From: Algoriphagus yeomjeoni
GTDB lineage: Bacteria; Bacteroidota; Bacteroidia; Cytophagales; Cyclobacteriaceae
Length of the DNA stretch: 64,000 nucleotides
Direction of reading: 5' to 3'
Assembly (NCBI RefSeq): GCF_003259505.1
Contig: NZ_QLLK01000001.1
Coordinates: forward strand, 248,001-312,000
The notes under the pieces: model-generated
What the model saw: only the letters and a program-made list of their open reading frames with translations
Databases searched by the model: none
Told to the model about the DNA's origin: nothing
Made by a program: the position numbers and the translations under genes
Part shown: piece after piece, positions 1-3,134 of the stretch
How positions within the stretch are numbered: the first letter of the stretch is position 1
Layout: every line of letters starts with the position of its first letter

Positions 1-155
1 TGAAAAGAGAAGATAACAGCATTAAGGATAATCAATAGAACTGTGAATGCTATTAACCCAAAGGCTGCGCCTTTAAATGCGTAAGAACCCGGGGAGATAA
101 GTAATAACTTAGCTAATATCCAGTTTTTGGCATTTTTAAACCATCTCTTTATCAT
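1..155 (-). CDS. Partial membrane protein, cut by window edge
   Basis: An open frame starts at an ATG at 155 and runs off the left edge, so only about 51 N-terminal residues are visible. They begin with a basic, tryptophan-containing stretch (MIKRWFKNAKNW) and lead into a long hydrophobic segment rich in Leu, Ile, Val and Ala, typical of a transmembrane helix. An in-frame TAG lies about 30 bases upstream of the ATG, so the start cannot be much further out. It lies 82 bases downstream of the Trm112-like gene on the same strand and may be the last gene of the TPP-riboswitch operon, or have its own promoter. I do not recognise the family. Function unknown. Confidence 0.55.
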   Translation of the reverse strand, partial: MIKRWFKNAKNWILAKLLLISPGSYAFKGAAFGLIAFTVLLIILNAVIFSF

Positions 156-237
156 ATATGGATAAGTTTTAAAAGTATTCCTAAGCTACTTTTTTCCTTA
201 TAAATAATAGAACCATCCATACTGTTTTTCAATGACT

Positions 238-519
238 TCAAGTATTCGTCAGGCTTTCTTTCAGCCTAAAATTCTTTATTTCTCTACCTTCCAATTGATT
301 TTGCCATCTATCCAATACTGGCTGCTCCAAATGAGCCTCTCGATATTCATCTGGATTCATGATAGGAATACCTTTGATGATGGGATAAATTCTCTCGCAA
401 CTAGGGCAGTTTAGCCAACCTTCCAAGATATTTTCGTGGGTATCTTTCAGAATTATTTTTAAGGTTAAATCATGCTTATCAAATGGACAGCAGAGCTTTT
501 CTATCGTTTCTAGTTTCAT
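238..519 (-). CDS. Trm112-like (YcaR/UPF0434-type) small zinc-ribbon protein
   Basis: A 93-residue protein with the Trm112 signature: Cys10-Cys11-Pro near the N-terminus and NCPSCERIYPIIKGIP at residues 37-52, the usual YPI-x-x-GIP turn after the second cysteine knuckle. Trm112 family proteins are zinc-binding activators of SAM methyltransferases in eukaryotes and archaea; the bacterial members are mostly uncharacterised. Its ATG overlaps the thiE stop in an ATGA arrangement, so the two are translationally coupled. The operon also encodes a class I SAM methyltransferase (2212-2967), so a methyltransferase-partner role is a natural inference, but the sequence does not show it directly. The C-terminal 30 residues are longer than in the shortest family members. 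Confidence 0.72.
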   Translation of the reverse strand: MKLETIEKLCCPFDKHDLTLKIILKDTHENILEGWLNCPSCERIYPIIKGIPIMNPDEYREAHLEQPVLDRWQNQLEGREIKNFRLKESLTNT

Positions 520-1166
520 TTTTTTAAGTCATTAAGTAAATGTTGGTATTGAGAAATGGCTTTCCCCGGATCTGCAGCTTTCATGACCCCAGAGATCACA
601 GCAATGCCATCAAATTCTAAGGGCTTTAGGTGCGCGATACTTTGAGTAGAGATACCTCCTGCTAGGAAAATTGGGATGGAGGTGAGTTTCCTTGTTTTTT
701 GAACCGTTTCGAACTCCACCAAATCACAGCTATTTGCAGTGGATGATGGGAACATGGAGCAAAAGGAGAGGTAATCTACTTTGGCCTGAATAGCCTCTTG
801 GATCAGCTCTAAGTCATTATTGATCGTCATTCCAATGAGTTTTCGCTGCTGCTTTAGCTTTGGAAATAATTTATTATAATCGGGAGGCAATTCATCAAAA
901 TGCACTCCATCGAGATCAAGCAGTTCTGCCCATTCCGGATGGTTATTGATGAGAATAGGAATTTCTGATCCTTTTGAGCTCGCCTTAATTTTACAAATAA
1001 GTGGAAGGACCTGCTCAGGCGAGCTGAAATTATCCCAAATCTGAAGTGCACAAGGCTTCGCTGATACAGCTTTTTCTAATGATTCTATCAGTTGGCCCTC
1101 TTCCATAGAAGGATCTATCACCAAGTAAATTCCGGAATTTATTTTAGCTCCATGTATCATTTCCAT
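516..1166 (-). CDS. thiE: ThiE/TenI-like thiamine-phosphate synthase, divergent
   Basis: A 216-residue TIM-barrel protein of the ThiE/TenI family. ThiE joins HMP-pyrophosphate and thiazole phosphate to make thiamine phosphate; TenI is a thiazole tautomerase with the same fold. Recognisable landmarks are the strand PILINNHPEW (70-79), GVHFDEL (87-93), LAGGIS (168-173) and the phosphate-binding GIAVISGVM (187-195). The usual INDR segment reads INNH, and the usual G-x-x-x-x-T-x-T-K loop is replaced by serine-rich sequence near residue 137, so this is an atypical member. The ATG at 1166 overlaps the upstream gene by 10 bases. A second ATG at 1160 makes an ATGA overlap and is an equally good start. 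It is third in the TPP-riboswitch operon, which supports a thiamine role. Confidence 0.78.
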   Translation of the reverse strand: MEMIHGAKINSGIYLVIDPSMEEGQLIESLEKAVSAKPCALQIWDNFSSPEQVLPLICKIKASSKGSEIPILINNHPEWAELLDLDGVHFDELPPDYNKLFPKLKQQRKLIGMTINNDLELIQEAIQAKVDYLSFCSMFPSSTANSCDLVEFETVQKTRKLTSIPIFLAGGISTQSIAHLKPLEFDGIAVISGVMKAADPGKAISQYQHLLNDLKK

Positions 1167-2212
1167 CCCTCTTTTAGAGCATTAAAATAAGCAGCCCAAT
1201 AGGGGTCAGTTTCCAAATAGACTAAGGGAGAGGTGACTCCGGATTTTTGAATTTGAATACCAGCTTTAGCATCAGTGATTTTACCCACTTCGGTGCAGAG
1301 AATCCCTGTAGAAGCTAGCCTGCAAATTACATCAGTTGCTTTTTCGGGATCGCAAGCAATGATCATGGATCCAGCACCGACGCAGTATCTTGGATCCAGC
1401 CCAAACAATCCTGAAATGGCAGCCGCAACATTTCCGATAGGTATCTGATCAATGTCAATTTCACCGCCTTTTTCAGAAGCAACTAGCATTTCATAGATAG
1501 CTCCTAGCACGCCACCTTCAGTGACATCATGCATGGCGTGGATTTCCGGGTATTTCTTATCCGTTCCAGCTGCGCAAAGTGCATCTTGAAGCGAGGATGT
1601 TTGGTAAAACTGTTCGAATGCTGAATGGTAAATTTCAACCCCAAGTTTTTGCTTGATAGTTTCAGGAAAACTCATCCCCAAAATTGCAGTTGCTGTCAAT
1701 CCACATGACTTGGTTATAAGAATGGAATCGCCAACTTGGGCACCGGTAGCACAAACGATTTCTTCCTCCGGAGCAATTGTCAGCAAGGTACCTCCACCTG
1801 CAAAGGTGGAATTTTGACCTTTCACAAAACCTGTATGTCCCCCTGTGATTGCGACGCCTATTTCCTTACAGTATTGATCTATAAAACTCCAATAAGTATT
1901 GAAATCATCCTTAGAAAGTGTATCTGGAAGGTTCAAAACAAACTGTCCATATTGCGGCGCAAAGCCGGTTGTAGCCATATCGTTTGCCATCAGGTGTACA
2001 CTTAACCAAGCTGATTCCTGCAAACCCAATGAAGGAATCAACGATAGCGGGTCACTAGTCGCCGCCAAAGCCAAGCCTCCAGGAAGTGAAGTAATAGCAA
2101 CGTCCACACCAAATGCGGGTCCTTGTATTACCTCTTTGCGCGCAGCGCCAAACCTACCCGAGAGCAAATCCTCATATCCCTGGAAGTTGATTTTACCAAG
2201 TTGATCTGCCAT
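1157..2212 (-). CDS. AIR synthase-related (PurM/HypE/ThiL superfamily) protein
   Basis: A 351-residue member of the PurM/SelD/HypE/ThiL ATP-binding superfamily. The N-terminal half carries ATSDP (51-55), the acidic substrate/ATP segment, followed by a MANDMATTG helix and GGHTGF (124-129). The C-terminal half has the HDVTEGG motif shared by HypE and SelD. Overall it looks closer to the archaeal HypE-like 'AIR synthase-related' group than to ThiL or PurM. Its TAATG overlap with the methyltransferase gene and its coupling to thiE put it under the TPP riboswitch. Possible jobs are thiamine-phosphate phosphorylation (a ThiL substitute) or supply of an aminoimidazole precursor. Neither can be decided from sequence, so no gene symbol is given. 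Confidence 0.75.
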   Translation of the reverse strand: MADQLGKINFQGYEDLLSGRFGAARKEVIQGPAFGVDVAITSLPGGLALAATSDPLSLIPSLGLQESAWLSVHLMANDMATTGFAPQYGQFVLNLPDTLSKDDFNTYWSFIDQYCKEIGVAITGGHTGFVKGQNSTFAGGGTLLTIAPEEEIVCATGAQVGDSILITKSCGLTATAILGMSFPETIKQKLGVEIYHSAFEQFYQTSSLQDALCAAGTDKKYPEIHAMHDVTEGGVLGAIYEMLVASEKGGEIDIDQIPIGNVAAAISGLFGLDPRYCVGAGSMIIACDPEKATDVICRLASTGILCTEVGKITDAKAGIQIQKSGVTSPLVYLETDPYWAAYFNALKEGWK

Positions 2213-2967
2213 TATTCTACATCATTGAGTTTGACATATAATCCGAAAAAGTCACCATAGGGAACACTCCATTGCTGGACTGGAAACCACTTTGGAAGAC
2301 CAGTGCATGACCATTCAATCGTGTAATCTCTTCCAACCAAAGCTTCTTCAATAATCTTAATAAGCATCGCTGGGGTGTAAAAAGTAGCGGTGACGTAGAA
2401 CGGGTTTTTGCCAAAAACCTGCTGAACTCTTCTTCTAAGAACTTTCGGAGAATTACGATTCATCATTCCCATCGCAATACCATACTTGGCAACACGGGCA
2501 GATTCCCGAATCACTTTCACAGGATCTTTGTAATATTCGAACGTAGTGATGAAGGCAAGTGAATCGAACGTGTGGTCTTTAAATGGCATGTGATGGGAAT
2601 CTGCCATCACCAAATCACCGTCAAACAAATGAATAGCCTGCGAAAGCATCAGTGGAGAAATATCTCCTCCAGTTGCCTTGATGCCAATTTCCTTCCACCA
2701 GCGCGTAAAGCGAGTAGTTCCACAGCCGAATTCCAAAAGTGTTTTTACCCGCTTGTCTTTGGACACCAGCTGCTCCATGACTTTCTTTTGCCAGACTTCG
2801 GCCCGCTTATAACGCCCTTCATACCAAAGCTCATAAGTATCGGTGTGCGCACGATTAAAAAACCATTCAGGTCGATTTTGCCAGTTTTTCTGCGCATCAG
2901 GCAGTAATTCGAAGTTCTTTTTCTCTAATTCCATAGGAAGTTTTGGTTGCAAAAATGTTAACTGCAT
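2212..2967 (-). CDS. Class I SAM-dependent methyltransferase under TPP riboswitch
   Basis: A 251-residue Rossmann-fold methyltransferase. Motif I is LLEFGCGTT (77-85), the acidic end of the next strand is GGDIS, and a post-motif region reads GDLVMADSHHMPF, as in the Methyltransf_11 family. A tryptophan-rich N-terminal segment (about 28-60) precedes the fold. It is the first gene after the TPP riboswitch and its stop overlaps the next start (TAATG). I chose the first ATG (2967), which is preceded by AGGAA immediately upstream. The ATG 11 codons further in is possible. The substrate is unknown. The riboswitch and the neighbouring ThiE-like gene point to thiamine or thiamine-analogue metabolism, and the Trm112-like protein could be its partner. 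Confidence 0.75.
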   Translation of the reverse strand: MQLTFLQPKLPMELEKKNFELLPDAQKNWQNRPEWFFNRAHTDTYELWYEGRYKRAEVWQKKVMEQLVSKDKRVKTLLEFGCGTTRFTRWWKEIGIKATGGDISPLMLSQAIHLFDGDLVMADSHHMPFKDHTFDSLAFITTFEYYKDPVKVIRESARVAKYGIAMGMMNRNSPKVLRRRVQQVFGKNPFYVTATFYTPAMLIKIIEEALVGRDYTIEWSCTGLPKWFPVQQWSVPYGDFFGLYVKLNDVE

Positions 2968-3018
2968 TTCCTGCGGTCAGACAACCAAGAGAAAACAAAG
3001 GCGTTTTCTGGCTTTAGC

Positions 3019-3090
3019 ATCCCTACGTTGGCATGATCCAAATCAGGTAATTCGGGTATTTTCTCAGCCTCACCATAAGGAAGGCACCCC
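3019..3090 (-). promoter_or_regulatory. TPP riboswitch (THI element)
   Basis: Read on the minus strand, the leader contains the conserved THI-box elements in the right order: GGGGTGCC at 3083-3090, then the GGTGAGGCTGAGAAAATACC core at about 3055-3074, ACCTGATTTGGATCATGCC (about 3030-3048), and the closing CGTAGGGATG arm at 3019-3028. The P1 arms (GGGGTG.. / ..AGGGATG type) and the pyrimidine-sensor CTGAGA are intact. It lies about 50 bases upstream of the methyltransferase gene. TPP riboswitches repress thiamine biosynthesis or transport genes when thiamine pyrophosphate is plentiful, so the whole downstream operon is predicted to be thiamine-repressed. Confidence 0.93.
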
Positions 3091-3102
3091 GTGCAATTGG
3101 TT

Positions 3103-3134
3103 CAAATATAGGCTAATTCTATGGCCAAGAAAAA
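3103..3134 (-). promoter_or_regulatory. Putative promoter of thiamine operon
   Basis: On the minus strand TATATTTG (3103-3110) matches the Bacteroidota -7 consensus TAnnTTTG and sits about 13 bases before the first riboswitch helix, the right place for a transcript that begins with the riboswitch. A TTG lies roughly 15 bases further upstream, a little closer than the usual 19-base spacing. Confidence 0.5.

Follow-up and report, generated by a model that had tools for sequence, protein, structure and literature searches.

A TPP riboswitch and a recurrent four-gene cassette in Bacteroidota, with a possible role in thiamine salvage

Riboswitches of the thiamine pyrophosphate (TPP) class normally turn off supply genes at high TPP. 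The classical thi operon of Bacteroidota, as present in a same-genus relative (genome G289) of the strain studied here, contains thiC, tenI, thiD, thiE, thiG, thiH and thiF, the last two named by eye. For gut Bacteroidetes, the passages of PMC5613172 that treat the condensing step of the pathway assign it to ThiE or YjbQ. In a study of TPP regulons (PMC3766115), the table has only Bacteroidaceae under Bacteroidae, with Chlorobiales given separately, and the main text never names a methyltransferase. Here we describe another TPP-controlled unit, found in Algoriphagus yeomjeoni within a stretch of 64,000 nucleotides (hereafter the window; G000:C1:248001-312000) of a 4.97 Mb genome. In this window, a TPP riboswitch heads a unit of four overlapping genes on the minus strand, encoding successively a methyltransferase (MT), a protein of the aminoimidazole ribonucleotide (AIR) synthase superfamily (AIRS), a ThiE-like protein and a Trm112-like zinc protein (Table 1). 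Like the thi operon of G289, this cassette has a TPP riboswitch at its head and a ThiE-family gene; unlike it, it holds no other gene in common, and no copy of the cassette AIRS was detected in G289. A literature search of titles and abstract openings, with most subscription papers outside its coverage, found no paper describing the unit.

Layout, recurrence and mobility of the cassette

An earlier note, made from the letters of the window alone, had recognized the riboswitch. It was recovered by cmscan over the full length of the model, and it is the sole above-gathering riboswitch within the 64 kb. The chain of overlapping genes reported in the same note was also seen: the MT stop and the AIRS start have one base in common (TAATG), the AIRS and ThiE-like genes overlap by 10 bases, and the ThiE-like and Trm112-like genes by 4 bases (ATGA). 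Its view that a unit unusual for thiamine biology stands under TPP control is supported. For the MT gene, relatives point to an in-frame ATG at 2934 as the start. Folding of the leader gained slightly over shuffles (z = -1.19), and no expression platform was resolved. Just 5' of the aptamer, the sequence TATATTTG at 3110-3103 (-) matches TANNTTTG, the -7 promoter consensus of Bacteroidota, and is a candidate promoter element.

Table 1. Features of the TPP-controlled unit, in window positions.
Feature	Position	Strand	Supporting match
TPP riboswitch aptamer, RF00059	3003..3101	-	cmscan 68.4 bits (gathering 54.3), E 2.5e-11, full-length model
MT, class I S-adenosylmethionine-dependent methyltransferase, 251 aa	2212..2967	-	Methyltransf_11, 2.8e-16
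AIRS, AIR-synthase-superfamily protein, 351 aa	1157..2212	-	AIRS_C, 6e-19
ThiE-like, ThiE/TenI-fold protein, 216 aa	516..1166	-	TMP-TENI, 5.5e-28
Trm112-like zinc protein, 93 aa	238..519	-	Trm112p, 3e-08, 33.9 bits (cut-off 22)

The search with AIRS was positive in 16 of the 291 genomes sampled from the order, and a scan of species genomes gave 8 named records, 2 of them, judged by length and range, on the same contigs as two of the 16. The search with MT was positive in 13 of the 395 genomes of a phylum sample, of which 10 were new (1 from the same class and 9 from a distant family, f43). Altogether, 32 distinct cassettes were obtained across Bacteroidota. A gene-order search had been proposed in the earlier note, and the order MT-AIRS-ThiE-Trm112 recurs in 31 of the 32 cassettes; in the exception (L040), the contig breaks off after AIRS, and the sole ThiE homologue of that genome opens another contig. 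In 31 cassettes, MT is immediately preceded by the riboswitch, which scores above gathering in 30 and reaches 47.8 bits in one (L169), the status of L036 being taken from L053, the same contig, which was scanned. Only L045 gave no TPP riboswitch match up to an E-value of 1. The same order without riboswitches in many genomes would, for the earlier note, have spoken against its idea; one cassette of 32 without a detectable riboswitch was found. The return of both riboswitch and gene order across 32 distinct cassettes shows that the arrangement is not due to chance. In the phylum sample, all 13 MT matches at E <= 1e-25 come with a cassette. No MT match at E <= 1e-10 was obtained from the plasmid collection, and no cassette was found in viral contigs.

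Judged from the trees of AIRS and MT, in which family f1 requires four changes and family f11 two, the cassette is horizontally mobile and mosaic, with a patchy distribution. MT is its most conserved member, with a mean pairwise identity of 0.743 (over the 32 cassettes), followed by AIRS (0.543), the Trm112-like protein (0.524) and the ThiE-like protein (0.441). In Parapedobacter sp. SGR-10 (L057), the MT is 88% identical to that of the window and the AIRS has a branch length of 2.3, its tree placement being unsure; this pattern suggests gene replacement or fast change within one cassette.

No fifth conserved partner gene was found within the stretches fetched around the cassettes. A cluster of ABC-type proteins at 7 loci was rejected as a partner, being a mixture of ABC proteins with 28-33% identity between families and with differing places and strands; the other larger neighbour clusters are opposite-strand open reading frames of the cassette genes, or are limited to close relatives. 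Nor could we retain the membrane protein which the earlier note had mentioned as a possible member. The gene in question starts 82 bases beyond the Trm112-like gene and encodes 803 aa with a hydrolase-type domain, membrane-like by eye; such a protein adjoins only 3 of the 32 cassettes, although four loci (L040, L045, L054 and L175) stop within about 1 kb of the cassette, where this neighbour is not fully visible.

The four proteins and their probable pairing

The ThiE-like protein has the fold, the length and the thiazole-phosphate loop (GGI ... S192) of the ThiE/TenI proteins. It matches the TMP-TENI family of Pfam with 98 bits, its model is of high confidence (predicted local distance difference test, pLDDT, 92), and the best PDB folds returned by Foldseek are ThiE/TenI structures (1xi3, 1g69, 2tps and 1yad). 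However, both equivalog cut-offs are missed (thiE, 90.1 vs. 145.1 bits; TenI, 45.4 vs. 251 bits). In ThiE of B. subtilis, the residues of the QxRxK, ND and TK motifs handle pyrophosphate and magnesium. We compared these columns in a MAFFT alignment of 31 cassette sequences (the L040 copy excluded) with three reference sequences. The arginine of QxRxK is a tryptophan in 31 of 31 (W44) and the lysine column holds Asp (16) or Asn (15), so that the motif now reads Q-W-D/N. The lysine of TK has become Ala, Val or Ser in all 31, two members having a lysine two columns earlier, and the second Asp of ND is kept in 5 of 31, being otherwise mostly Asn or Glu. The thiazole-phosphate loop is retained in 31 of 31, S192 included. 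Besides W44, new invariants are S134, F135, C136 and C147 (31/31), together with D91 in 30 of 31; position 47 is Trp in 18 sequences, Phe in 12 and Met in 1. The former anion-binding Arg/Lys/Mg site is now aromatic and acidic (W44 and D/N45, 31/31 each; W/F47 and D91, 30/31 each). Since the pyrophosphate-handling residues are lost, hydroxymethylpyrimidine pyrophosphate (HMP-PP) is probably not the substrate, which agrees with the lack of a recognizable ThiD to supply it (see below). The protein should consequently not be counted as a standard ThiE, as it had been in the earlier note. The passages of PMC3144219 that treat the ThiE of another species gave no usable residue roles.

AIRS has both AIRS domains, as do SelD, HypE and ThiL, and falls below all the cut-offs for named families (hypE, 67 vs. 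251.6 bits; thiL, 61.8 vs. 184.15; selD, 51.7 vs. 125). Its invariants in 22 members are G6-K7, N77-D78, GGHT and HDVTE. With SelD it shares the GGH[S/T] and DVT motifs, and K7 aligns with the lysine of the SelD motif GCGCK; the lysine is kept, whereas the N-terminal cysteine (or selenocysteine) of SelD is missing at that position. It also lacks the C-terminal cysteine of HypE, its C-terminus being ...KEGWK, and it differs from the genome's own ThiL by GGHT instead of GGDT. In the plasmid collection, AIRS relatives at 27-32% identity were seen among the best 20 of 22 records; they are mostly haloarchaeal, with one cyanobacterial protein annotated 'AIR synthase family', and the nearest by E-value is from Haloarcula (31%). 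In all three Haloarcula plasmids (L184, L187 and L188), the AIRS relative is divergent from genes for a thiamine-binding protein and a thiamine transporter substrate-binding protein, which counts as one syntenic observation in one genus.

MT stands far from any named family, its best NCBIfam match reaching 43.5 bits for a cut-off of 158.35, and in this it is unlike the Trm112-dependent methyltransferases Bud23, Mtq2, Trm9 and Trm11. Its best PDB match is 3l8d, a methyltransferase of unstated role, and a chain of an 18S rRNA guanine-N7 methyltransferase (7wtw_q) is matched at 1.3e-06. The AlphaFold model is poor (pLDDT 67.4, with an input row from residue 13). Among solved structures, two short chains of 60 and 61 aa, 6zxw_H and 6f5z_C, come closest to the Trm112-like protein, with eukaryotic TRM112 behind.

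As in the known Trm112 systems, a small Trm112-like protein is encoded with a class I methyltransferase, and the pair coevolves. Correlations of pairwise distances are highest for MT with Trm112 (r = 0.87) and for AIRS with ThiE (r = 0.87), the remaining pairs lying between 0.65 and 0.78. Trm112 came out as the best partner of MT in all 31 jackknives and in 498 of the 500 row bootstraps, and the ThiE-like protein as that of AIRS in 499 of 500 row bootstraps; neither kind of resampling takes shared ancestry out. After removal of 11 rows (near-copies and L057), the lead of MT-Trm112 shrinks (0.76 vs. 0.70 and 0.54), but the value for AIRS-ThiE is still 0.85. Read plainly, these correlations would point to two modules, MT with the Trm112-like protein and AIRS with the ThiE-like protein, and the Trm112-like protein is a probable partner of MT.

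Thiamine genes and other TPP elements in the cassette genomes

We compared the thiamine genes of 28 genomes, 16 with the cassette and 12 relatives without it, and checked ThiG in 26 cassette genomes. ThiC was found in none of the 16 cassette genomes and in a single genome overall (1/28), namely G289, which has no cassette. At E <= 1e-5, each of the 16 cassette genomes has one ThiE/TenI protein, which is the product of the cassette gene (presumed in G025, across a contig break); none was detected in 11 of the 12 relatives, and two were in G289. Full-strength ThiD was likewise missing from the 16 cassette genomes, G289 alone having it (176.3 bits). The other 27 of the 28 rows returned by this search are lesser matches, 20 of them in cassette genomes at no more than 56.4 bits; the 8 examined, from 7 cassette genomes, are sugar kinases or NAD(P)H-hydrate dehydratases, and the rest reach at most 51.7 bits. 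ThiG is present in G289 and was found in 0 of the 26 cassette genomes, the weak matches in G062 and G556 being FabK-like.

By contrast with these genes, canonical ThiL exceeds the cut-off in all 28 genomes, whether they carry the cassette or not, which means that AIRS does not stand in for a missing thiL. The earlier note had advised looking for thiL elsewhere in the genome of A. yeomjeoni, and regarded its presence as the first half of an objection to its own idea; a canonical thiL was indeed found there (323.8 bits vs. a cut-off of 184.15), as were purM and selD, both named by eye from translations. ThiL also occurs in 11 relatives without ThiC and without a ThiE homologue, in which the source of thiamine monophosphate is therefore unexplained.

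Apart from any match at the cassette itself, a TPP element at E <= 1e-4 was matched in all 16 cassette genomes. In each of the 10 cassette genomes examined, an additional TPP element lies before a TonB-receptor-like gene, identified by eye except in A. yeomjeoni. Thiamine uptake is therefore likely. The locus of A. yeomjeoni (L176, G000:C1:211500-219500; L003:2-505, minus strand) has a second TPP riboswitch of 64.7 bits, and the TonB receptor behind it is confirmed by Pfam.

Possible functions of the cassette

The explanation that we favour, with a probability of roughly 0.4, is a TPP-repressed cassette for salvage and assembly, which would deliver thiamine phosphate to ThiL without HMP-PP. 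At low TPP, the riboswitch would permit the making of the four proteins. MT with the Trm112-like protein as its zinc partner would constitute the first module, and AIRS, as an ATP-dependent enzyme, would form the second with the ThiE-like barrel. Starting from a precursor or a breakdown product of thiamine taken up by the cell, the four proteins would together yield thiamine phosphate, from which housekeeping ThiL would make TPP. In this assembly, the ThiE-like protein would keep its thiazole-phosphate loop without using HMP-PP, and AIRS would probably provide the phosphorylated partner. We infer the direction of regulation, thiamine phosphate as the product and every reaction step. Salvage and assembly is the best explanation because it brings together the riboswitch class, a ThiE relative with an altered donor site, a member of an ATP-using family, a methyltransferase with a probable zinc partner, ThiL in all tested genomes and no other tested route. 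Among the alternative routes put forward in the earlier note, a branch from another precursor is still the best reading, and an alternative thiamine-phosphate kinase is not, given the canonical thiL elsewhere.

Several points weigh against this explanation. ThiC and full-strength ThiD are rare anyway, each being present in only 1 of the 12 relatives without the cassette; the lack of both in cassette genomes would therefore not suffice to link the cassette with salvage, and for ThiC it is context and not proof. No other route to a thiamine half was found among those tested, with TenA, ThiM, THI4, THI5 and thiamine pyrophosphokinase outside the searches. The TPP-controlled TonB receptor suggests that the cells import thiamine itself. 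Single records from Halobacterium, Haloferax and Acaryochloris lack the neighbourhood of AIRS and thiamine genes seen in Haloarcula. Most awkward for the ThiE-like step, YjbQ could be the coupling enzyme.

Gene-based rules for vitamin B1 would class such bacteria as plain auxotrophs, or would wrongly credit them with ThiE. If the cassette allows life on breakdown products of B1, predictions of dependence in sea and soil would change, and chemistry would be added to a textbook vitamin pathway.

A bolder form of salvage and assembly, which we regard as a long shot, is a thiamine phosphate synthase independent of HMP-PP in which a methylated cationic leaving group replaces pyrophosphate. MT with Trm112 would methylate a pyrimidine vitamer, e.g. 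4-amino-5-aminomethyl-2-methylpyrimidine (AmMP) or a thioether of hydroxymethylpyrimidine (HMP), to a quaternary ammonium or sulfonium. The ThiE-like protein would displace this cationic group with thiazole phosphate, perhaps via a pyrimidine bound to C136, and AIRS would be the kinase making the thiazole phosphate. A cationic leaving group would explain both the presence of a methyltransferase and the change of Arg and Lys to Trp and Asp/Asn. A suitable substrate exists, since the parts of PMC10470507 that deal with seawater report the detection of AmMP and of its formylated form (FAMP), with TenA as the known way of using AmMP. If this reading is true, the two halves of B1 could be joined by yet another chemistry, and AmMP could be used without TenA and ThiD.

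Among the other explanations, an unlikely one is the repair or disposal of damaged or analogue thiamine (oxidized, ring-opened or toxic mimics), with MT tagging or detoxifying the compound and the ThiE-like protein cleaving or recycling it, thiaminase-like, by its two cysteines. The invariance of C136 and C147 (31/31), the patchy and mobile distribution and the likely uptake of thiamine through the TPP-linked TonB-receptor-like genes are consistent with it. However, induction at low TPP, as presumed from the riboswitch, suits supply better, and no conserved hydrolase or exporter gene adjoins the unit.

Production of a modified thiamine or antimetabolite (cf. bacimethrin and methoxythiamine), with MT as the tailoring enzyme, is decidedly improbable. 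A methyltransferase inside a TPP-controlled unit and the mosaic, mobile nature of the cassette would fit, but conserved genes for an exporter, for resistance or for a pyrimidine hydroxymethylase are lacking nearby, and a toxin pathway triggered by the TPP starvation of its own maker would be odd.

To an equally low probability we assign the possibility that the cassette makes or activates only the two precursors, and that YjbQ couples them to thiamine phosphate. YjbQ, named secondary thiamine-phosphate synthase (TIGR00149), is encoded in the genome of A. yeomjeoni with 125.7 bits for a cut-off of 67.75. Its gene stands on the opposite strand, upstream of the TPP-controlled TonB receptor, with one gene between. 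This vicinity favours the coupling, as does the assignment of condensation to ThiE or YjbQ in gut Bacteroidetes. However, YjbQ was examined in this genome only, and the ThiE-like barrel would require a separate function. The protein is also widespread and may have another main role.

A role of MT with Trm112 in the modification of macromolecules such as tRNA, rRNA or protein, by which the unit would tune translation to thiamine status, is very unlikely. Trm112 partners are mostly translation methyltransferases, MT matches an rRNA methyltransferase chain (7wtw_q) and is by far the best conserved member; yet AIRS and the ThiE-like protein in the same unit would be left unexplained, and the best PDB match is the other methyltransferase, 3l8d. 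Scarcely credible, finally, is AIRS as an alternative thiamine-phosphate kinase or as PurM: the thiL model gives weak matches to each of the 22 members tested (the best at 4.6e-24), but the AIRS of the window has GGHT instead of the GGDT of the genome's own ThiL and stays under the thiL cut-off, canonical ThiL is present in 28 of 28 genomes, and purM in A. yeomjeoni.

Elsewhere in the genome of A. yeomjeoni (L177, G000:C4:195000-201000), a sub-threshold TPP element of 41.8 bits precedes a gene for a PnuC-family transporter, which is followed by one for a protein resembling acyl-CoA dehydrogenases and flavin monooxygenases. In another genome (L182, G119), a weak TPP element stands before a gene pair that looks similar by eye. 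One idea is that this PnuC-linked flavin protein is an oxidative enzyme acting on a thiamine vitamer.

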